From Ancylomarina subtilis (GTDB lineage Bacteria; Bacteroidota; Bacteroidia; Bacteroidales; Marinifilaceae), in assembly GCF_004217115.1 (NCBI RefSeq), contig NZ_SHKN01000001.1, forward strand, positions 1,181,781 through 1,245,780: 64,000 nucleotides of DNA. Reading direction: 5' to 3'. Made by a program: the position numbers and the translations under genes. Below, in pieces: positions 25,959 through 57,670 of this stretch. The notes beneath the pieces were generated by a model, which had not been told where the DNA came from, did not search any database, and saw only the letters and a list, made by a program, of their open reading frames with translations. Each line of letters starts with the position of its first letter. Position 1 is the first letter of the stretch.

Positions 25959-26108
25959 CGTGCATTTGTATTAATGAATAATTCGATCTTAAAAAAAATC
26001 GATAGCACGGTAATCGAACGTCTACGAATTGGGGTGTAAAAAACTATTGCAGATGATAACATATCAACAAACAACTCCCTTCCCCAAGAGTTTTAGGTTT
26101 GATTACCA

Positions 26109-26288
26109 TTTTGGCAGGTTTCCTGACTTGTTTCGTAGATCGAATGATCGGTTTCTTTCCTTCCCATCCGCGAAATGCGAACAGTGGATGTGGTAAAAAC
26201 CATAAAAAACTTACAGTAGCGGGGGCTGTCCCGGATTTTAACCGGATTCCCTTTTAAAGCTCAATCGAAGATGAAGCTTTCACCAAAA
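26109..26288 (-). promoter_or_regulatory. Cobalamin riboswitch
   Basis: On the minus strand the B12-box core AAGTCAGGAAACCTGCC occurs near 26113-26129. The upstream part has GGGAATCCGGTTAAAATCC and GGGACAGCCCCCGCTACTGT (about 26210-26250), which are standard cobalamin-riboswitch elements. The ends TTTTGG (5' side, 26283-26288) and CCAAAA (3' side, 26109-26114) pair as the closing P1 helix. It leads into sirC and should shut the whole operon down when cobalamin is abundant. A weak 5-bp stem followed by eight U's (about 25990-26017) could be a terminator form of the expression platform; that part is uncertain. Confidence 0.96.
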
Positions 26289-26294
26289 CTGTGT

Positions 26295-26324
26295 CAAATG
26301 TAGTGGTTTTTTATTCGCTCCAAA
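26295..26324 (-). promoter_or_regulatory. Promoter of the cobalamin operon
   Basis: TTTG (complement of 26321-26324), an 18-base spacer, then TACATTTG (complement of 26295-26302), a perfect Bacteroidota -7 box. Transcription would begin near 26289, exactly where the riboswitch P1 helix starts. Confidence 0.85.
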
Positions 26325-41679: not shown

Positions 41680-44600
41680 TTAAAAGTCAACATTAATACC
41701 AAAAGTGAATTCAGGTTCAGGTTTATAAGAGCCCAAAGGGTATTCAGGATCTTCATTATACTTATTCGCATAGATAGAAAACACATTATTCACCTGCGAG
41801 TAAATTCTAACGCTTTCCAAGCCTGTTTTCTTTAAAAACTTCGAAGGAAGATTATAAGTTAAATTCACTTCCTGCATCCTCACATGATTAGCACTTTCTG
41901 TCAGATAAGAGAATGATCTCCAAAAACGATCCCAAAAATAGTAACGGCTTTCGGTATCATTTTGAGGCAGTGGCATCATTTTATCCGCATCGGCATTCAA
42001 CACCTCTGAGAATCTTGAATTAGGAACCAATGCATTGTAATTGTACGAAGTCCTTCTAAACACATGCCCAAATTTACCGGTCATAATACATGAAATATCG
42101 AAATCATGAATTTTAAAACCGAATGACAATCCCATTACCCATGGGGCCACGGTTGTTCCTTGGGAATAGGCATAATTCATCACATCATCGGCCGGCCAGG
42201 TTCCAAACCCATACAATGTACCATCTTTACCACTTATTTGTGGCTGCATATTTGGCTTTGCATCTGTTCCCATATTATGTAAACCAGCATAATGACTGCC
42301 AAAAATTGTATTTGCATTTTCACCTTCGACAAAAGCAGTAGTTTCACCTGCTCTCATTGGCAGCAAATCATTGTGATGAAACTTATCTCTATAGAGTTTT
42401 GTTACTTTATTATGGTTGTAAGACACATTAAAGTTGCCATAAAAATCCACCTTGTTTGCAATAGGTAACCTGGTTCCAACTTCAATCTCAATTCCTTTAT
42501 TGATCATGTCGGCCGCATTCATCTTTTGAGAAACAACACCATTAACCGCAGGAATAGAAACACTTGCTACAAGATCCTTTGCTGATTTATGGTACACATC
42601 CACCTTCCCAAACAACTTTCCTCTAAACAATGAATAATCAATACCCAAGTCCAGAGTACCGGTTTTTTCCCATCTTAAAGTTGGATTACCATAGCTTGAT
42701 ATACGGGCATAGGGTTCATTTGTATAAGTATTGTTGTTTGGATACATGCTTATTAAAGGCAGGAAAGAAGTCGAACGATCCACATTTCCGTTGTATCCAT
42801 AAGTCGCACGCAGAGCTAATCGATCTACCCACGACACATCCTTCATAAAATTCTCTTTCGAGATTTGCCAACCCCCACCTATCGACCAAAAAGGTGAATA
42901 TCGATAAGAGGGATCATCGGTAATTAAATTTGAAGCATCTGTTCGGGCACTTCCCGATAGGGTATATTTATCGTTATATGTATAGGCTGCATTAAAATAA
43001 GCTGACACATATTTATCGGTATTATACCCAAATTCATGAACCTTGTTTTTGTATATGGTTGTTTTGTATCCATACCAATTGTAAATGGCCAGGTTACTAT
43101 TTGTATAACTACCTAAACCGTTGGGTAAAGTCCCTACGGTTAGTTTATCATCATCATAACCGTAAACTCTTGGCTCAGTAAAAGTTTTAGTTACTCTTTT
43201 GTTGAGCTCCATACCCGCTATGGCATTGAAAGAATGTTTCCCAAAAGTCCGGTCAAAATTTAATTGATTTCTAAAGGTTAAACTTCCGATTTCACTCCTA
43301 TTCTGATCCAGATAATTACCATTTGGAATATTTGGGGTTAACTTATTATCTGCCCGATTCCACTGAGTGTAATAATTAATTTCCGATCTGACAGCATAAG
43401 TGCCCTCTCCCAAAATGTTTTTATTTGAGCTATTAAAGCTCTCATATTGAATTTGAGAATTAAATTTCAAGCCCTCAAAAGGCTTAAAAACCAAGGCTCC
43501 CTGAAATCTTGTTTGAATTTCCTTATTTGTATAATCTGTATTCTCCATTTCTGTAATGGGATTGTAAGACAAATCGGAGTAAGGAAAACTCTCTTTCGGC
43601 CAATATCGGTCAAAATTTGGCATATACATTCCTTTGTAAACAGGAAGTCGATTCCCCGATTCATCCAACAACATCTCATATGGAGCAATACTTTTGATAT
43701 CTGCCAAGGACGCATTATTGGAAGATTGTTTGTATCCATACATCCCACTAAAACTAAAATCCAGCCATTCAAAAATCTGGGCAGAATTTCGATAGTTAAT
43801 TAAAACCCTCTTATTTTCCTTCCCCTTTAAATAGGACTGATTGCCTTCATACATAATTGAAAGGCTATTATTAAACTTCTCAGATCCAGAGGAAATTTGC
43901 AAATTGTGCTGATGAATAAAAGGATTTTTCATCAAATGATCTTCTATCTGTTTTTGATTGTTCTGGGAGGCATACTTAGTAAGTCTGGCATCAAGTTCTT
44001 CATCCGACAAATAACCCAGATTATGCTCATTCAAAGCAACTCTACCTGGTGTTAAAGAAGACATAATTGACATTTCCTGATCTATCATTTTGTGAGAACC
44101 AGCGCCCCATTTACCAAAAGACATTTTCTCATAAGCAACAACATCTTCAGAAGAAGCTCTATCCAGCAGATAACTGAGATCAGGCTTAGAAGAAAATTTG
44201 ACAAAAGAATTAACAGATACTTTTAATTCGCCTTTTTTCAGGTTCTTCCCGCTTTTTGTTGTCACTACAATGACTCCATTCGCAGAACGGGCTCCCCAAA
44301 TTGAAGCCGCCGAAGCATCTTTTAGAACAGTTACACTTTCCACGTCATTGGGATTGATAGAAGAGAAATCGCCTTCAATGGCAAAACCATCTACCACAAT
44401 TAAAGGTTTCGAGTTTGCAAACAAACTACTTTTACCACGAATTTCAAAAGTTGGATTTCCTTCATCATCAAATGTCGCCTGAACCCCAGATACATTACCT
44501 ATCAACCGAGAGCCTATGTTGGTACTCGGTTTATCAATTTGATCTTTGGATACCAAATTAAAACTACCTGTTGCCCGCTCTTTAGAAATTGTCTGGTAAC

Positions 44601-45243
44601 CCGTTACCACAACTTCACCTATGATTGCCGCATCTTCCTCAAGCGTCACATTAATTACTTTTTGTCCCGTATAGGTCAATTCCTGCGATACCATCCCAAC
44701 AAAAGAGAACACCAAAACAGCATTATCACCTTCAATTTTGATACTGTACTTACCATCAATATCGGTAGCAACTCCAGAGGTGGTTCCTTTTACAACTACA
44801 GAAACACCAGGAAGGGTATTGCCATCGGCATCGGTAACGGTTCCTTTGACTTCTTTTTCCTCTTGTTTTACTTCTTTCTCAATTACAATGGGTTTCTTCG
44901 TAATCAAAACATAATCATCTACAATTTCGTACTGCAAAGAAGCCTGATTACAAATTTCTTCCAAAGCGTCTTCCAAACTCACATTTAAAAAATCAACATC
45001 AACCGTCAAGTCACTGTCAATCTCATCTTCACTATACATGAAAAATGTCCCCGTCTGAACTTTAAATTCCTTAAAGACGTCTCTCACAGACATCCTTCCC
45101 GACTCAATACTAACCTGCTGCCCCATCACCGATGCTGACAGTTGCATAGAACAGGCTAATATTAACAATACACTTATCTTCATAATACGTGCGATTTTAC
45201 TAATGGTAGGTGATAAACACCTCCACTTTCCTAATTTTTTCAT
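41680..45243 (-). CDS. susC-like: SusC/RagA-family TonB-dependent transporter with STN domain (downstream locus)
   Basis: 1187 residues. Long signal region with MKISVLLILACSMQLSASVMG, STN domain (about 45-110, e.g. VRDVFKEFKVQTGTFFMYS and LEDALEEICNQASL), a carboxypeptidase-regulatory-like beta-sandwich (about 130-210, KGTVTDADGNTLPGVSVVV), a plug with SLFANSKPLIVVDGF and ASIWGARSANGVIVVTT (about 265-330), then a ~22-strand barrel to the C-terminal EPEFTFGINVDF. The STN domain fits trans-envelope signalling to the FecR protein encoded next to it. A putative antisense RNA starts at its first codon. Confidence 0.95.
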   Translation of the reverse strand: MKKLGKWRCLSPTISKIARIMKISVLLILACSMQLSASVMGQQVSIESGRMSVRDVFKEFKVQTGTFFMYSEDEIDSDLTVDVDFLNVSLEDALEEICNQASLQYEIVDDYVLITKKPIVIEKEVKQEEKEVKGTVTDADGNTLPGVSVVVKGTTSGVATDIDGKYSIKIEGDNAVLVFSFVGMVSQELTYTGQKVINVTLEEDAAIIGEVVVTGYQTISKERATGSFNLVSKDQIDKPSTNIGSRLIGNVSGVQATFDDEGNPTFEIRGKSSLFANSKPLIVVDGFAIEGDFSSINPNDVESVTVLKDASAASIWGARSANGVIVVTTKSGKNLKKGELKVSVNSFVKFSSKPDLSYLLDRASSEDVVAYEKMSFGKWGAGSHKMIDQEMSIMSSLTPGRVALNEHNLGYLSDEELDARLTKYASQNNQKQIEDHLMKNPFIHQHNLQISSGSEKFNNSLSIMYEGNQSYLKGKENKRVLINYRNSAQIFEWLDFSFSGMYGYKQSSNNASLADIKSIAPYEMLLDESGNRLPVYKGMYMPNFDRYWPKESFPYSDLSYNPITEMENTDYTNKEIQTRFQGALVFKPFEGLKFNSQIQYESFNSSNKNILGEGTYAVRSEINYYTQWNRADNKLTPNIPNGNYLDQNRSEIGSLTFRNQLNFDRTFGKHSFNAIAGMELNKRVTKTFTEPRVYGYDDDKLTVGTLPNGLGSYTNSNLAIYNWYGYKTTIYKNKVHEFGYNTDKYVSAYFNAAYTYNDKYTLSGSARTDASNLITDDPSYRYSPFWSIGGGWQISKENFMKDVSWVDRLALRATYGYNGNVDRSTSFLPLISMYPNNNTYTNEPYARISSYGNPTLRWEKTGTLDLGIDYSLFRGKLFGKVDVYHKSAKDLVASVSIPAVNGVVSQKMNAADMINKGIEIEVGTRLPIANKVDFYGNFNVSYNHNKVTKLYRDKFHHNDLLPMRAGETTAFVEGENANTIFGSHYAGLHNMGTDAKPNMQPQISGKDGTLYGFGTWPADDVMNYAYSQGTTVAPWVMGLSFGFKIHDFDISCIMTGKFGHVFRRTSYNYNALVPNSRFSEVLNADADKMMPLPQNDTESRYYFWDRFWRSFSYLTESANHVRMQEVNLTYNLPSKFLKKTGLESVRIYSQVNNVFSIYANKYNEDPEYPLGSYKPEPEFTFGINVDF

Positions 45244-45250
45244 ACTTTTG
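45243..45250 (+). promoter_or_regulatory. Antisense promoter box at the susC start (downstream locus)
   Basis: TACTTTTG on the plus strand, a perfect TAnnTTTG -7 box, begins at the last base of the susC start codon. No good TTTG is seen at the -33 spacing. The same box position recurs at the other susC (55401-55408). Confidence 0.6.
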
Positions 45251-45256
45251 GGTTTA

Positions 45257-45336
45257 GGTTACTTAATGCCATTGCTTCAACAATGGTTTTTAATTATCAC
45301 TAGCGGGAAATACGGCAAATATTTCCCGTTTTTTTT
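45257..45336 (+). ncRNA. Putative antisense RNA of the susC leader (downstream locus)
   Basis: Predicted RNA of about 80 nt from the box at 45243-45250. It has a 6-bp hairpin CCATTG/CAATGG (45269-45286) followed by T's, then a 9-bp hairpin CGGGAAATA/TATTTCCCG (45304-45328) with eight T's, a textbook terminator. It is opposite to the susC leader between fecR and susC. The upstream-locus copy at 55414-55493 has the same layout with unrelated sequence. Similar cis-antisense RNAs (DonS-type) are known in Bacteroides polysaccharide loci, where they repress susC. Confidence 0.7.
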
Positions 45337-45414
45337 GTCTGCAGTTCAACTCCAGTCGATATCCGACTTCCTTTTATATGTTCTACGCATAAGTAAGCCC
45401 AGAACGACTTTAAG

Positions 45415-46593
45415 TTATTGACGTCCAACAACGATATACTTCCCTTTGATTGCAAAATCAACATCTGCAATGCGTTCTATCATATTAAGAGCATATTCAA
45501 ATGAATTCTCTTTCTCAAAGGCCCCGGTAAAACGGATATGTTTGTATTCTTCATTCATAAAAAAGAAATCAACATCATACCATCGTCCCAATTGAATCAT
45601 AATATACTCAAGCTCCATATCCTCAAATTCATAAACGCCACTCACCCAAGACGTATACAAATCAGCATCCACTTTTTTAATCATGATCTGATCTTTCCCT
45701 CTTAGAATGGTTGATTGATACCCCGGCTTCAATATTTCAGTTTGATTTAAATTGTTGATCTGCACAGATCCTTCGACAAGTGTTGTCGCTATAAAATTCT
45801 GATCATCATAGCCCGATACATTAAATTTGGTTCCCAAAACTTTCACTTCTGAATCATGAGTATGGACAATAAAGGGAGCTTGCTTATTGTGCGCGACCTC
45901 AAAATAGGCCTCTCCAGTCAAATACACATCTCTTTTACCTTTCAAAAACTTAACCGGGTATCGCAATTTGGTATCAGCATTCAACCATACTTTAGTACCA
46001 TCGGTCAGGGTTAATGAATACTCCCCTCCTCTAGGCACATCAATTGTATTGTAAAGCAGTTCTATTTTCTTTGTTGTTTTTGAAGTATAGGCCAGATTAT
46101 TAGCTGAATCTTTAGAAATCTGAGTTCCATCTTTTTCAGATATCAGCTGTTCAATATTATCTTGTAATTTAACTTTTGAACCATCAGCTAAGGTTAAAGT
46201 CGCTTTTTTATTTCCTGCATGAGCAAATTCAGCAAAATTATAAGCCTTTGAAAAATCAACCTTTTCAACTTGATTCTTTAAAACAAGAGTACTCACAACA
46301 GCAATAATCAAAACGGCAGCGGCATAAGGAAGCCAGGTAGATAGCTTCCAGGTTTTCGTTTTTTTCTTTGTGATATTTGATGCAATACTATTCCAGGCCT
46401 TTTGCTGATCAAGCTGATGATAAAAAGCTATTGAACGCCCCTTAAGATAAAGTTTACGATAATGATTAAACAGACGTCTGTTTGCCTCATTTTCTGAAAG
46501 AAAATTATCTAAATCTCTTTTTTGTGTATCAGACAACTCTCTTTTTGAATAGTCGATTGCCAGATTAATAATATATTCCTCTTTTAATTTCAT
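45415..46593 (-). CDS. FecR-type anti-sigma factor (downstream locus)
   Basis: 392 residues. A cytoplasmic N-terminal segment with YSKRELSDTQKRDLDNFL, a single membrane helix WLPYAAAVLIIAVVSTLVLK (about 84-103), the periplasmic FecR domain with IDVPRGGEYSLTLTDGTKVW and LNADTKLRYPVKFLKG (about 190-220), and a C-terminal DUF4974-like secretin/STN-type domain (about 320-390). It should hold the sigma factor and release it on a signal from SusC. Placed after sigma and before susC. Confidence 0.93.
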   Translation of the reverse strand: MKLKEEYIINLAIDYSKRELSDTQKRDLDNFLSENEANRRLFNHYRKLYLKGRSIAFYHQLDQQKAWNSIASNITKKKTKTWKLSTWLPYAAAVLIIAVVSTLVLKNQVEKVDFSKAYNFAEFAHAGNKKATLTLADGSKVKLQDNIEQLISEKDGTQISKDSANNLAYTSKTTKKIELLYNTIDVPRGGEYSLTLTDGTKVWLNADTKLRYPVKFLKGKRDVYLTGEAYFEVAHNKQAPFIVHTHDSEVKVLGTKFNVSGYDDQNFIATTLVEGSVQINNLNQTEILKPGYQSTILRGKDQIMIKKVDADLYTSWVSGVYEFEDMELEYIMIQLGRWYDVDFFFMNEEYKHIRFTGAFEKENSFEYALNMIERIADVDFAIKGKYIVVGRQ

Positions 46594-46810: not shown

Positions 46811-47362
46811 CTACAGAAACATAAACAAGATGATAACATCCAAAGAATTACGAAGTTGTTTCAATGCCCGTGCGAAATGGGTTTTAACGGTATTAACCGA
46901 AATATTTAAATCCTCAGCAACATCCTTGTATTTCATATTCTGAAAGATAATCGCTTCAAATACGTTTCTGCTTTGTTGTGAAAGGTTTTCTAACTCCTGA
47001 TAAAGTTTTACTTTCATTTGTTCTAAATCTTCAGGATCAAAAGAATCATCCATCAAGATATCAAACTCATCATTCATGGTTTCAATTTGATAGCTCTTAT
47101 TTTTACGAATGTAATTCAGAGCATTGTTTTTTACTGATGTAAAAAGGTAGGATTTTAATGAAACATTCAACTGTTTAACTCTGTTATTTTCCCAAAAACC
47201 TATAAATATATCTTGAACCAAATCTTCAGCCAAATCGAAAGAATCAATATATTTTAAAGCGAACACACAGAGAGGAGAATAATAAATATCAAACATTTGG
47301 CGCAAACCAGACTCGTCGCCATTTTGTAATTTCTGTATAATTAATTGCTCCTGATTGTTCAT
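46811..47362 (-). CDS. ECF sigma-70 factor (downstream locus)
   Basis: 183 residues. Region 2: YYSPLCVFALKYIDSFDLAEDLVQDIFIGFW (broken by the natural 2.1/2.2 boundary), region 4: LSQQSRNVFEAIIFQNMKY then DVAEDLNISVNTVKTHFARAL as the helix-turn-helix. It is the Bacteroidota-type short sigma that pairs with FecR and switches on the adjacent susCD. A TTTG-N19-TATTTTTA promoter lies directly in front of the ATG, so the message is almost leaderless. Confidence 0.93.
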   Translation of the reverse strand: MNNQEQLIIQKLQNGDESGLRQMFDIYYSPLCVFALKYIDSFDLAEDLVQDIFIGFWENNRVKQLNVSLKSYLFTSVKNNALNYIRKNKSYQIETMNDEFDILMDDSFDPEDLEQMKVKLYQELENLSQQSRNVFEAIIFQNMKYKDVAEDLNISVNTVKTHFARALKQLRNSLDVIILFMFL

Positions 47363-51882: not shown

Positions 51883-54800
51883 TTAAAATGTACCTTTTAA
51901 GCTGAATGTAAACTCAGGTTGATTCAGGATTCCGCCACCTGTGGTAGCGATATCTAAGATATCTGGGATATTTTCCGGGTCGATATTTTGACTGTTAAAA
52001 ACGATTACGCCCAAATTTCTTGCCTGAACAGAGAATTTCAGTTTAGATAGTGAAAGGGGCTTAATTATTTTAGCAGGCATGTCGTATGATAAAATAACTT
52101 CCTTAATTCTGATATGAGAAGCATCGAGAACCGTATTGCTACTGTTGCTGGTATAAGCATCAAAGTAAGAAGACAACATCGAAGAATTGCCAGGGAAAAC
52201 AGGCACGTCAGTCGTTAATTCATCACCTGGATTCTGCCATCTTTTTTCATAATCTTCATGAATCCAATTTCTCTCAGTAGAAGATGTGAATTTTCTGTAA
52301 TTCAAGGTATTTCTTCGGAAAACATGTCCCAACTTATAGGTCATAAGAAGTCTTAAGGAAATGCCTTTGTATGCAAAATTATTTATTACACTTCCATAAA
52401 ATTTTGGGGTCGTCGTTCCTTCATACTTTAGTGCATCAGCATCTTCAATTGCATCAGATGAAGAAACAATGTCGCCATTTTGGTCATATACCTGAGGTAA
52501 ACCTTCTGAAGACAGACCAGCCCATTTGTAACTGTACATATAAGCATAAGGTAAACCAACCTTAGGCTTCATGTTTAAGTAAGAAGATGGAGTCTCATCA
52601 GGCATCTCAATCTCCTTTACCACATTTTTGTTATGAGAAAAATTAAGGCCAACATTCCATTTAAAAGCTTTGTCGATAGCCAGTGCATTCAGACTGAAAT
52701 CGAGTCCCTTGTTTGAAATCTCGGCAACGTTCATTTTAGCTTGCGAAAAACCATATGTAGAATTCAGCGATACAAAACCTAACAAACCATCACTGTACTT
52801 ATTGTAATACTCAATGCTACCCGATAGTCTATTGCGAAACATCGAGAAATCAAGACCCAGGTTTGTAACTGAAGTTCTTTCCCATCGCAGTTTTGGATTG
52901 CTTGGATTATTGACATAAGCAAATTGATTTTGTGTATTGTAATCTTTTGCAACCAAAGCAATCATGTAGGGGCTGGTTGTTTTATCAACATTCCCATTCA
53001 AGCCATAAGTTGCTCTTAAACTTAACTGATTAATAAAATCAAAATCAAAAAAATCTTCCTTATGTATTTGCCAATTACCACCAAGCGACCACAGAGGTAC
53101 GTTACGATATTCAGAATCAGCACCAAAAAGATTTGAATCGTCCAAACGGGCACTGGCAGTCAGCGTATATTTTTCGGCATATGTATAAGCCATATTTCCA
53201 TAGTAGGAAATAAAACGATCTTCTATATCTTCAAATTGTGTATTATCCCCAATCGTATATTTTCGACCACTAACAGCATTCGGAAATCCTTCATTTAAAT
53301 TAATATTCTTGTACTGGAGGCTTTGAGGATCATAACCATATTTTTTCATACCCTTGGATGATTCGCGCTCAAATTTTCGAACTTCGATACCTGCCATGGC
53401 TGTAATATTATGCAAGTTATTATTAAACGATTTATTAAAATTTAATTGTCCTCTGGTAGTAAAGGCCTTATAATTTTTATAGGATTCACCAAGAATTGAC
53501 CCTTTGGGTACATAGGAAACAACCTCTCCATCTTCAATTACCGTTCTGTAATTAACAAAATTCCTTACATAATAAATTTCTTCATTGTTAAGGCTTCTTC
53601 CTTTGTTATCGCCCCATTCGTACTGGTAACGCCCATCAAAATCAAGCCCTTCGAGAATTTTATAATTAAAACCAACTTTTAATTTCAAATCAACATCTTT
53701 CTCATAATTATCCTTATTATCGAATTCTCTTTTAAGATTGTAATCCCAATCGTAAGGGTAGCCCTGATCAACCAAATTCTCCTTGAAATCTTGATAATAA
53801 CCCTTAGGCTGGTTTACGTAATTACCATTTTCATCCAATATCTTTTGGTACTGAGAAGTGCTAGTAATACTTGAAAGACCAATTCCATTGTTCTTTTGAT
53901 TTCGAATCGTCGCATTAATTCCAACATTAACAGTCAATCGGTCATTCAATTTAGAATTTAAACTTAAATTGGAAATAATTCTTTCATTAGCAGATTGCTT
54001 GGAATAAGATTGATTGTCATCATAATTAACTGAAGCATAGTAGGAGTTCCTTTCACTATTCCCACTAATAGCCAGACTGTATTGTTGTCTGACTGCTTTT
54101 CTTAAAAACAAATCAGAAAACTCATCTCTTACATCCGTATTTTTCAGTCCATTAACAACAGCATCAGTTTGCTCCTGAGTATAAATACCATCTCTTAGTT
54201 TAAGAAAAGCATCCATACCAACTGTCAAAGGGTATTGATTAGCACCTACAGGCAAGTTGGTATACTTATTATTCGCCAAAAACTTCTCCGCCTCTAAAAA
54301 TGATTCGGTAGATGCAAAAGGTAAATCATATAAATCAGGCTTTTGAGTTAAGGACAATGAAGAGGTGAATTCAATATTAGTCTTCCCTTTGCCAGTTCCT
54401 CTTTTCGAAACAATAACAATGACACCATTTGCAGCTCTGGCTCCCCAAATAGAAGCAGCGGCAGCATCTTTCAACACTGTAATACTTTCAATGTCATTGG
54501 GGTTTATTGTTTCCATATCTCCTTCAATCGGAAAACCATCGACAACTATAAGAGGTTTTTGATTGGCAAAAAGTGTGCTTCTACCACGAATCTCAACATT
54601 CCCATCCTTGTCGAATAAAACACCGGCAGTCTGGCCCTCCAACTTATCCAGAATGTTCACACTCGACTTTTCTTCGAGTACTACGGCATTTACTTTCTCG
54701 AATGCACCTGTTGCTCTCTCTCTGGAAAGGGTTTGGTAACCTGTTACTACAACTTCATCCAAATTTGCTGTATCATACTTCAATACAACATTCAAATCAA

Positions 54801-55401
54801 CTTGTCCCCTATAAGCAATCTCCTGCGATATCATCCCAACAAAAGAGAACACCAAAACAGCATTATCACCTTCAATTTTAATGTTGTAATTGCCATCAAT
54901 ATCAGTAGCAACACCATTGGTTGTTCCTTTTACCACCACAGAAACACCAGGCAGGGTATTGCCATCTGCATCGGTAACGGTTCCTTTAAGCTCCCTCTTT
55001 TCCTGTTCACGATCTGATTCTTCAGGCTGATTACTTTTCTCAGCTTTAAATATCACAATCACTCCATCCTGCACTTTATAATCCAGGTCCGTTCCTTCCA
55101 GCGCATCACCCAAAATTTCCTGTACACTGGTGTTTTCCACATTCATATCCACTCTAATCTCAGGATTAATATCCTGTATCTTGTAGAGAATACCATAACC
55201 TGTTTGTACTTTGATATCTTCAAACACCTCTATTAGCGTAGCATTCTCGTATCGGGCTAAAGAAACCTCCTGTGAAAGTCCGTTAGCCAAAACACTTAGG
55301 TTGAGTGCAAAAAACAGAATAATAAAATTTCTCATAAGCCAGTAGCTTTTCAGCCATTTCCCCCTCATCGGAAGGAAGTGACAATTCCAGTTTTTTTTCA
55401 T
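51883..55401 (-). CDS. susC-like: SusC/RagA-family TonB-dependent transporter with STN domain (upstream locus)
   Basis: 1172 residues. Signal region with NFIILFFALNLSVLANG, STN domain (about 45-115: TLIEVFEDIKVQTGYGILYK, VQEILGDALEGTDLDYKVQD), carboxypeptidase-regulatory-like domain (about 135-215), plug with STLFANQKPLIVVDGFPIE and ASIWGARAANGVIVIVSK (about 265-335), barrel to the C-terminal QPEFTFSLKGTF. The regulatory-like domain is about 90% identical at the DNA level to the other susC over 160 bases. An antisense box and hairpins sit at its start codon. Confidence 0.95.
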   Translation of the reverse strand: MKKNWNCHFLPMRGKWLKSYWLMRNFIILFFALNLSVLANGLSQEVSLARYENATLIEVFEDIKVQTGYGILYKIQDINPEIRVDMNVENTSVQEILGDALEGTDLDYKVQDGVIVIFKAEKSNQPEESDREQEKRELKGTVTDADGNTLPGVSVVVKGTTNGVATDIDGNYNIKIEGDNAVLVFSFVGMISQEIAYRGQVDLNVVLKYDTANLDEVVVTGYQTLSRERATGAFEKVNAVVLEEKSSVNILDKLEGQTAGVLFDKDGNVEIRGRSTLFANQKPLIVVDGFPIEGDMETINPNDIESITVLKDAAAASIWGARAANGVIVIVSKRGTGKGKTNIEFTSSLSLTQKPDLYDLPFASTESFLEAEKFLANNKYTNLPVGANQYPLTVGMDAFLKLRDGIYTQEQTDAVVNGLKNTDVRDEFSDLFLRKAVRQQYSLAISGNSERNSYYASVNYDDNQSYSKQSANERIISNLSLNSKLNDRLTVNVGINATIRNQKNNGIGLSSITSTSQYQKILDENGNYVNQPKGYYQDFKENLVDQGYPYDWDYNLKREFDNKDNYEKDVDLKLKVGFNYKILEGLDFDGRYQYEWGDNKGRSLNNEEIYYVRNFVNYRTVIEDGEVVSYVPKGSILGESYKNYKAFTTRGQLNFNKSFNNNLHNITAMAGIEVRKFERESSKGMKKYGYDPQSLQYKNINLNEGFPNAVSGRKYTIGDNTQFEDIEDRFISYYGNMAYTYAEKYTLTASARLDDSNLFGADSEYRNVPLWSLGGNWQIHKEDFFDFDFINQLSLRATYGLNGNVDKTTSPYMIALVAKDYNTQNQFAYVNNPSNPKLRWERTSVTNLGLDFSMFRNRLSGSIEYYNKYSDGLLGFVSLNSTYGFSQAKMNVAEISNKGLDFSLNALAIDKAFKWNVGLNFSHNKNVVKEIEMPDETPSSYLNMKPKVGLPYAYMYSYKWAGLSSEGLPQVYDQNGDIVSSSDAIEDADALKYEGTTTPKFYGSVINNFAYKGISLRLLMTYKLGHVFRRNTLNYRKFTSSTERNWIHEDYEKRWQNPGDELTTDVPVFPGNSSMLSSYFDAYTSNSSNTVLDASHIRIKEVILSYDMPAKIIKPLSLSKLKFSVQARNLGVIVFNSQNIDPENIPDILDIATTGGGILNQPEFTFSLKGTF

Positions 55402-55408
55402 AAATTTG
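55401..55408 (+). promoter_or_regulatory. Antisense promoter box at the susC start (upstream locus)
   Basis: TAAATTTG on the plus strand, a perfect TAnnTTTG box, begins at the last base of the susC start codon, the same position as 45243-45250. No clear -33 TTTG. Confidence 0.6.
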
Positions 55409-55413
55409 TAATG

Positions 55414-55493
55414 ATTAAGGTTAAATTAAGAATACCGCATGTATTCTTTTAACTGCCCGAAAAGTGTTGTCGCATTTTTCGGGTTTTCTTTTT
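55414..55493 (+). ncRNA. Putative antisense RNA of the susC leader (upstream locus)
   Basis: Predicted RNA of about 80 nt: hairpin GAATAC/GTATTC (55430-55446) followed by TTTT, then hairpin CCCGAAAA/TTTTCGGG (55456-55483) followed by TTTTCTTTTT. Same order, spacing and length as 45257-45336, with different stem sequences. It ends 8 bases before the fecR stop codon region. Confidence 0.7.
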
Positions 55494-55501
55494 AGGTTCT
55501 A

Positions 55502-56701
55502 TTATATTTTTTGATTAACAATTAATACATCTCCTTTTACTTCAAACTCAACATTTGATCCCAGTTCCAACAAGTTAAGAATGGTCGAAAAATCCTCAAA
55601 ACGTTTCATTTCACCTGTAAAGCGTATATTTTGAATTGAAGGATTCTGGAAAAAAACTTTCACATTATACCAACGCGAAAGCTTTCGCATGATACTTCCC
55701 AGGTCTTCGTCGTTAAATTGGAATCGTCCATCTTTCCATCCGGTATACAAACTGGTCTTAACCGTTCGAAGCTCCCCTTTCAACGCACCCTTATTATAAG
55801 CAACCTGCATATTGGGTTCCAGCATCATCTTCTCAACAATACCACTTTCATTTTTCAGATGAACCCCAACACTCCCCTCCACAAGGGTTGTTTGTGTTAA
55901 TTCTTCATCGTCATAAGCCATCATATTAAACTCAGTACCATAAACCTTAACATCCATCCTATTGGTTTGTACAATAAAGGCATGTTCCTTATCCTTTGCC
56001 ACATCGAAATAAGCCTCTCCCTTGAGATACACAATTCGATCTTCCCCAATAAATCTGTCAGTGTATTTTAATTCGGAATCAGAATTTAGCCAAACTTGCG
56101 TTCCATCGGACAACTGGAGTTGATACTCTCCGCCTTTGGGAACCACCAAGCGATGCCACTTTGTACTCATTTCAGCCAAATGTTCACGATCATAGGAAAG
56201 TTTATGATCGCTGTTTTTTAACTGATCCCCCTCTGTAGTTTTTATCAACTGATTCTGCTGATCTTCAAGATCTATTGTCTCTCCATTAGACAAAATCAAA
56301 GTCGCTTTTTGTGTACCCGGAGTGATATTATCCACCCAAACTTCATCATAGGTTTCAACAGAATCGATGGCATTATAAACCAAATACCCCCCAATGGCCA
56401 AAGGCAAAATTAAAATAGCAGCATAACGGACAAACTCTTTAAAAAGCGTTCGCACTTTTGTTTCTGTTTTTAATTGTGGCTCCAATTTTTTCCAGGCTTG
56501 TTCCGAATCGATTTGATTGTATTCCTTTTTTTTAGAATCGAGATCCAAATCCTGAACAAGTCTCTCATAAAGAGATCTATTTTCTTCAGACTCATGCTTC
56601 CATGCATTAAGGATATCGGATTCCGATTCGTTCAACAAATCGGTTTTCTCCTTGTAAATCAGCTTTGATATTTTGATATGTGCTTTGGTCGTGCTCATCA
56701 T
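55502..56701 (-). CDS. FecR-type anti-sigma factor (upstream locus)
   Basis: 399 residues. N-terminal helical cytoplasmic part (to about 85), membrane helix FVRYAAILILPLAIGGYLVY (about 88-107), FecR domain with VVPKGGEYQLQLSDGTQVWL and YLKGEAYFDVAKDKEHAF (about 190-240), and a C-terminal DUF4974-like domain (about 325-398, DEDLGSIMRKLSRWYNVKVFF). Paired with the sigma factor at 56928. Confidence 0.93.
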   Translation of the reverse strand: MMSTTKAHIKISKLIYKEKTDLLNESESDILNAWKHESEENRSLYERLVQDLDLDSKKKEYNQIDSEQAWKKLEPQLKTETKVRTLFKEFVRYAAILILPLAIGGYLVYNAIDSVETYDEVWVDNITPGTQKATLILSNGETIDLEDQQNQLIKTTEGDQLKNSDHKLSYDREHLAEMSTKWHRLVVPKGGEYQLQLSDGTQVWLNSDSELKYTDRFIGEDRIVYLKGEAYFDVAKDKEHAFIVQTNRMDVKVYGTEFNMMAYDDEELTQTTLVEGSVGVHLKNESGIVEKMMLEPNMQVAYNKGALKGELRTVKTSLYTGWKDGRFQFNDEDLGSIMRKLSRWYNVKVFFQNPSIQNIRFTGEMKRFEDFSTILNLLELGSNVEFEVKGDVLIVNQKI

Positions 56702-56927: not shown

Positions 56928-57494
56928 TTATAAATCGAGAAGATAAGCCAATAAAGGCAACAGGAATAGTTGATTCTTAAGGCGTTCTCGCAAAATGCTT
57001 AAAGCCTGATTTTTGTGGTATTTTACGGTACTGGTTGATAAGTCGAGTTCTTCCGCAATTTGTGCATTCTTAGCGCCATTCATACTCAAAGCACAAACCT
57101 TTCGGGTTTGTTCGGGCAAACTATCAATGGCTTGTATCAGCAAACGGTAGGTTTCCTCCTCAATCACGTGATTCTTAAAAAAAAGCGCATTCGATTTATC
57201 TTGCAATATTTCTTTCTGATGAGCATCAATAACTTTTTGATGACGGAAATGATTCAGGGCTTTATTCTTCACACTCATGTACAAGAACGCTTTTATAGTT
57301 GAAGCATCCTCTATCGTACGTCTCTTTTCCCAAAGTTTCACCAAAACCTCTTGCACCAAATCTTCAGCCAAATCATTATCCTGCACATATTTTTTTGCAA
57401 AAATCAACAAGGCTTTATAGAACGTATTAAAAATACATTTGAAAGCTTGTCTGTCTCCTTTGCGAAATAATTCAAAGTCTTGTGAGGTAAACAT
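56928..57494 (-). CDS. ECF sigma-70 factor (upstream locus)
   Basis: 188 residues from the ATG at 57494. A longer frame to 57575 is open but would start upstream of the promoter found at 57525-57555, so it cannot be on that message. Region 2: FNTFYKALLIFAKKYVQDND and LAEDLVQEVLVKLWEKR; region 4: LPEQTRKVCALSMNGAKN and QIAEELDLSTSTVKYHKNQAL. Regulated by the FecR gene that follows. Confidence 0.93.
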   Translation of the reverse strand: MFTSQDFELFRKGDRQAFKCIFNTFYKALLIFAKKYVQDNDLAEDLVQEVLVKLWEKRRTIEDASTIKAFLYMSVKNKALNHFRHQKVIDAHQKEILQDKSNALFFKNHVIEEETYRLLIQAIDSLPEQTRKVCALSMNGAKNAQIAEELDLSTSTVKYHKNQALSILRERLKNQLFLLPLLAYLLDL

Positions 57495-57524
57495 ATTTGG
57501 GTTTAAGGGGCGATTAGAATGGCT

Positions 57525-57555
57525 TAAAGATATTTTTTTCGGACGATAATACAAA
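57525..57555 (-). promoter_or_regulatory. Promoter of the sigma gene (upstream locus)
   Basis: TTTG (complement of 57552-57555), 19-base spacer, TATCTTTA (complement of 57525-57532). Same spacing and same A in place of the final G as at 47372-47402. Confidence 0.7.
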
Positions 57556-57670
57556 AAATTGATGAATTCAATCAAAAATACCTCACTCTGTTTAGATGGA
57601 TTGAATAGGTGTTTTTTATTATAGCATGTCTGCTAATAAAGGGTAGAATGCCAAAAGATGGCTTTCACAA

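Follow-up and report, generated by a model that had tools for sequence, protein, structure and literature searches.

Cao et al. in 2016 reportedly described DonS, a type of PUL-associated cis-antisense RNA of Bacteroides. In B. thetaiotaomicron, ten PUL antisense RNAs were counted at first and 32 later, with five and then two detected on Northern blots, and those of Bacteroides measure 78–128 nt (PMC7366714, PMC10994844). For B. fragilis, 15 such RNAs have been published. A primary-sigma-type promoter precedes 52% of the cis-antisense RNAs of B. thetaiotaomicron, and TAnnTTTG is the −7 consensus of the primary sigma factor (PMC7366714). Repression of the cognate locus has been published for one B. 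fragilis RNA, its mechanism being unknown (PMC11697453, PMC10994844), and among the antisense–susC pairs of B. thetaiotaomicron inverse and positive correlations both occur (PMC10994844). In Flavobacterium psychrophilum, a member of the same phylum as Ancylomarina subtilis, 287 transcribed regions lie antisense to coding sequences; the authors draw attention to PUL antisense RNAs of B. fragilis, although the accessible part of their report does not single out a FecR–SusC class (PMC9723704).

Here we describe a comparable unit in A. subtilis, in a stretch of 64,000 nucleotides (the window, to which all coordinates refer unless stated otherwise). The window contains two loci in which genes for an ECF sigma factor, FecR, SusC and SusD follow in that order, on the minus strand throughout, each with a plus-strand unit opposite the start of susC (Table 1). 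DonS-type RNAs, which the sequence-only reading had named as the closest known parallel, hold up as such: they too are divergent to susC, as is the A. subtilis unit between fecR and susC–susD, and the 80–83 nt predicted for the A. subtilis RNA, with ends placed from the sequence, fits the published range. A promoter of its own may be marked by its perfect copy of the conserved −7 box, but a −33 element was looked for and not found. The unit differs in belonging to another lineage and in having locus-specific hairpins. By position and plan, the unit appears to be a further DonS-type RNA.

Layout of the antisense unit

Table 1. Features of the two window loci; RNAs and antisense units are predicted.
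Feature	Position	Strand	Remarks
susC-type TonB-dependent receptor	41680..45243	-	Plug, carboxypeptidase-regulatory-like domains; leader covered by predicted antisense RNA
TAnnTTTG box (−7 box, primary sigma factor)	45243..45250	+	letters TACTTTTG, perfect match
Predicted cis-antisense RNA, ~80–83 nt	45255..45336	+	51.5 bits over 45243-45336
Hairpin 1, 6 bp	45269..45286	+	CCATTG-CTTCAA-CAATGG, then TTTTT
Intrinsic terminator	45304..45336	+	9-bp hairpin, 7-nt loop, eight T
fecR-type anti-sigma factor	45415..46593	-	FecR, FecR_C
ECF sigma factor	46811..47362	-	
Second susC-type receptor	51883..55401	-	STN domain present
Second antisense unit	55401..55490	+	box 55401-55408, hairpin, terminator; 52.8 bits
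Second fecR	55502..56701	-	
Second ECF sigma factor	56928..57575	-	

The sequence-only reading had proposed a unit of about 80 nt within the fecR–susC gap, made up of a perfect TAnnTTTG box opposite the susC start, a 6-bp hairpin with T's and a second, of 9 bp, that leads into eight T's. The box and both hairpins can be read directly in the letters, hairpin 2 as CGGGAAATA-CGGCAAA-TATTTCCCG (45304-45328) followed by its T's at 45329-45336, and the predicted RNA sits inside the 171-nt gap. The reading had also placed the start of the box at the last base of the start codon, which is right along the plus strand, where the codon reads CAT (45241-45243), but not in the sense of susC, in which the first base of the box pairs with the A of ATG. 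Placed from the box, the 5′ end of the RNA would lie at about 45254-45257, and the terminator would set its 3′ end. A terminator scan of 44900–45700 returned three sites, all on the plus strand and two of them hairpins 1 and 2, against a shuffle mean of 0.2. The downstream SusC also gave an STN match below the curated cut-off (E 5.4e-5). Some 78 bp (45337-45414) separate the antisense terminator from the fecR stop, and the gap, 173 nt long in the ortholog L096, measures 90, 94 and 121 nt in L104, L088 and L117. Nothing in Rfam scored above its gathering score at the antisense unit (the only match, to frnS, reached 16 bits where 60 are required, at a chance-level E of 2.4); the sole Rfam match above gathering score in the window is a cobalamin riboswitch at 26096-26302 on the minus strand.

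The second locus is arranged alike, as had been claimed for it, with its box (TAAATTTG) in the same register as at the downstream locus and a predicted RNA at about 55413-55490 (fold z −5.9); the two units have their layout in common and differ in their hairpin sequences.

FecR-linked loci, controls and the box at the start codon

Twenty relatives were searched with FecR_C, and the 80 stretches fetched were the top ones among the matches listed and are thus a non-random sample. Together with A. subtilis itself, 13 relatives yielded 115 FecR-linked downstream ORFs, some of them not SusC; six stretches lie outside this set (L027–L029, of unknown strand, and L012, L013 and L020, with no usable downstream ORF). 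Starts were called blind to the box, taking the first ATG with A/G-rich codons after it or, failing that, the first ATG of all, and terminators were sought in the 140 nt upstream of the start, with six dinucleotide shuffles each. As controls we used 30 SusC genes with no FecR within 1.6 kb upstream, 13 from the A. subtilis genome and 17 from named loci (defined below) whose match started beyond the STN region; L042 and L043 are included.

Conservation of the hairpins upstream of other SusC genes had been set in advance as a test of the sequence-only reading, and a strong terminator (hairpin and T-run) was present on the antisense strand at 69 of the 115 FecR-linked loci and on the sense strand at one, where shuffles gave 1.8 and 0.2, compared with 2 antisense and 3 sense among the 30 controls. 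The box stood perfect at register −7 in 73 loci (74 with two corrected starts) and with one mismatch in 17, versus none and five of the controls; the differences from controls are significant by Fisher's test (box 1.6e-11, terminator 6e-8), in which relatedness is ignored. Box (at most one mismatch) and antisense terminator occurred together at 63 of the 115 loci, while 46 had no antisense terminator at threshold and 25 no register −7 box even at one mismatch. Within the A. subtilis genome, nine of 13 FecR_C matches (L001–L009) precede a SusC above the TIGR04056 cut-off, and in each of the nine an antisense hairpin leading into a T-run passes one or the other of two thresholds, in L004 only weakly (−5.5 kcal/mol); six of their boxes are perfect at −7, those of L001 and L006 have one mismatch and that of L009 is perfect at +8. 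Of the 22 SusC genes of this genome, the other 13 have no upstream FecR; these gave no perfect start box, three boxes with one mismatch and one antisense terminator (L043).

One A. subtilis SusC (L240 1480-1620; ~124996-125107 of contig C1) shows no STN match within its first 500 residues, and the search upstream of it found no FecR, yet it carries a strong antisense terminator and a box with one mismatch; its unit may have been left behind when the sigma/anti-sigma pair was lost. L114 and L115 (both in genome G008) have near-identical SusC N-termini and different plug regions, while L088 and L117, with which L007 is listed, have nearly one plug behind differing N-termini, as though SusC exchanged its regulatory front end and its barrel as modules.

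Read on the sense strand, the box is CAAAnnTATG, which bears on a rival reading in which only the terminator matters: it would keep stray antisense transcripts that arise in the long susC out of fecR and the sigma gene, and the box would be A-rich translation context in a phylum nearly without Shine–Dalgarno sequences. The strand and place of the terminator fit such a role, and in F. johnsoniae adenines upstream of the start aid translation, with A at −3 a main positive signal (PMC6847099). In the A. subtilis genome CAAANNTATGRARAA has 15 occurrences, six of them at FecR–susC starts, so the box alone is unspecific and was rejected as a stand-alone detector; five of the 30 controls, moreover, are one mismatch away from it. 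Against this reading, C at −7 is found in 69% of the 115 unselected loci (67% of 78 deduplicated) versus 20% of controls; the adenines at −6, −5 and −4 are present in 88, 87 and 83% versus 53, 47 and 63%, while A at −3 is unenriched in both sets (29% of the 115 loci, 37% of controls). The rarity of both features at SusC genes without FecR (perfect box 0 of 30, antisense terminator 2 of 30) also speaks against this reading, as does the retention of the box sequence at three registers: −7 in 105 loci, −3 in eight named loci and +8 in five loci, where the start codon may have been misread. The register −3 box, CAAATGTA, has the ATG inside it; seven of its eight loci are Sphingobacteriales by title, and six have an antisense terminator. 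We consider the terminator-only reading unlikely.

Because its sequence stays constant while the start codon shifts, the box behaves as expected of a promoter element. A search for a −33 TTTG or TTG at a fixed distance from the box found none, which weakens the promoter claim; published work likewise did not find this element in F. johnsoniae but did in B. thetaiotaomicron (PMC7366714).

Strand polarity and breadth across the phylum

An alignment of 58 of 66 deduplicated units (A2; eight were left out) paired 88.7% of its terminator-stem cells versus 68.9% when shuffled and 55% or less when the partner was slid by one column, figures that are favoured by the preselection of its units for an antisense hairpin. 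Two-sided changes affected all nine terminator pairs, with 122 such cells versus 38 in shuffles. Across ten ortholog groups (48 sequences, grouped by eye or from titles), RNAalifold showed compensatory changes at 20 pairs and broken pairing in 51 cells, of which the group of the downstream locus contributed one compensated pair and no broken cells. The consensus fold was better on the antisense strand in all ten groups, G-U cells there numbered 174 versus 30 on the opposite, sense strand, and hairpins found blind to strand held 94 G.T versus 16 A.C appositions, where composition predicts an estimated ratio of about 1.5 to 1. The stems covary, and the G-U polarity favours the antisense strand.

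This polarity bears on whether the hairpins instead act in the susC mRNA, as an attenuator, a protein-binding site or a stability element, with the plus-strand T-run incidental. At the downstream locus the sense strand does fold (z −3.0, versus −3.9 for the 82-nt antisense RNA), and in its ortholog group the strands are indistinguishable by fold (antisense −21.9, sense −21.8). Yet the sense fold is the weaker in 10 of 10 groups, if by 0.1 kcal/mol in that one, and the excess of antisense over sense T-runs (69 to 1) together with the G-U polarity makes a sense-strand leader element, in our judgement, very improbable.

Terminator loops contain GTTG or CAAC in 23 of 99 units versus 6 of 97 other terminators. 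Recurrent loops, among them GTTGGCGC, GTTACAGC and GTTGCAGC, are shared by unrelated loci and genera in either orientation, and the loop is inverted between the orthologs L003 and L075. We rejected the recurring loop as a specific signal on account of its mixed orientation (among 73 units, 29 AAC, 11 GTT and 33 neither or both) and of a similar loop 3′ of a ribosomal protein S20 gene (L260).

A covariance model of 83 positions (R1) was built from 58 units with the terminator stem as its only structure; the A. subtilis genome was absent from it and same-genus orthologs were included. In the 4-Mb A. subtilis genome it gave six matches at E ≤ 0.01, all in FecR–susC gaps, both window units among them and five with ATG at the box. 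Six weaker matches followed (E 0.38–3.9): L009 (E 1.8), the lone SusC L043, the opposite strand of the L005 gap and three elsewhere; at E ≤ 10, two of the nine units of this genome (L001 and L004) went unreported. Over 198 genomes of the phylum, A. subtilis included, R1 returned 15 matches at E ≤ 0.01, namely these six and nine in six other genomes. Each of the nine sits in a FecR–SusC interval with ATG at the box, in families other than that of A. subtilis, and Pfam confirmed both FecR and receptor for five. With matches in seven of 198 genomes, its own included, under strict filters, R1 is insensitive as a phylum-wide detector. In 11 further scans, of genomes picked because a named locus there showed the unit, R1 gave 62 matches at E ≤ 0.1; 30 were examined as loci, and 28 are FecR–SusC junctions, 27 of them with ATG at the box. 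False matches are L260 (E 0.008, the terminator of the ribosomal protein S20 gene) and L272 (E 0.099).

SusC N-termini were also matched to public genomes, giving at least 596 stretches, of which the best 80 were kept as named loci, 79 with a usable start (L214 had none) and with orders assigned by eye or from titles. Among these 79, the −7 box was perfect in 31 and within one mismatch in 45, an antisense terminator was present in 36, and both features occurred in 29, with hosts including Bacteroides fragilis, Parabacteroides chinchillae, Pedobacter nyackensis, Chitinophaga, Dyadobacter, Larkinella and Flagellimonas. The nearest match among the best 80 of at least 596 was Marinifilum breve, and Flavobacteriales contributed three of the 80, one with the box, so small are the counts per order. 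In the B. fragilis strain (L213), a SusC start is accompanied by both box and antisense terminator, and three R1 matches in its genome, examined as loci, are all FecR–SusC junctions. A DonS-type class outside Bacteroides, or a fusion of box and start codon, was not found in the literature searched, a weak negative given that few subscription papers were covered; what appears new here is the breadth across orders and a putative promoter box with one base common to the start codon.

Proposed action and implications

Sequence establishes that the unit exists, on which strand it lies, that it is conserved and that it goes with FecR–SusC. Position, strand and comparison strongly support a dedicated antisense transcription unit, and we hold a gene to be likely; its transcription in A. 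subtilis we infer. With good confidence, we propose that 45243-45336 is a short antisense RNA gene in the ECF sigma–FecR–SusC module, whose product, about 80 nt long and the complement of the susC leader, most likely lowers susC expression. From the −7 box, one base of which belongs to the start codon as well, a plus-strand transcript would begin a few bases upstream of ATG and end about 80 nt later at the intrinsic terminator. Since it would start upstream of the ATG and run to the terminator, it would cover the leader up to just before the ATG, with perfect complementarity, and exclude the start codon. TTAA is enriched in the first part of the RNA (53 of 73 units, shuffled mean 28), making its predicted 5′ end A+T-rich opposite the ribosome-loading region. 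When the inducing glycan is absent, susC could be lowered by pairing of RNA and leader, through blocked ribosome loading or RNase III cleavage, and/or by head-on transcription into the susC promoter. A search for a sense-strand ECF promoter did not locate one: the motif search gave only the terminator arm and alignment on the loop AAC gave no −10. With the susC promoter not located in this way, overlap of the RNA with the real susC 5′ UTR is assumed.

The RNA could also be made and act solely by promoter collision or occlusion, with no RNA–RNA pairing. This is a version of our best explanation, and its odds overlap with those given above; taken as the sole mode of action, we regard it as possible but doubtful. 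In its favour, the antisense and susC promoters must share the short gap, or else the susC promoter lies within fecR. Nothing decisive stands against it: cognate duplexes of eight A. subtilis units reach −136 to −152 kcal/mol versus a non-cognate median of −31, but perfect complementarity is imposed by the geometry. Because repression has been published for one such RNA and correlations are mixed, we regard the antisense RNA gene as likely and susC repression as probable, with pairing and collision as candidate routes.

A wider proposal, to which we give even chances, is that the Bacteroidota ECF sigma–FecR–SusC module has the antisense RNA as a standard, ancient part, one locus-specific RNA per module, with an antisense promoter that is merged with the start codon of susC (CAAAnnTATG; CAAATGTA in Sphingobacteriales). 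Start codon and −7 box would then evolve together as a single element, and the same dozen base pairs would serve both ribosome and RNA polymerase. The sequence rule used here, a box on the start codon plus an antisense terminator between fecR and susC, would allow PUL antisense RNAs to be listed and tested phylum-wide without RNA data, and would pinpoint the sites at which mutations could separate antisense transcription from protein sequence.
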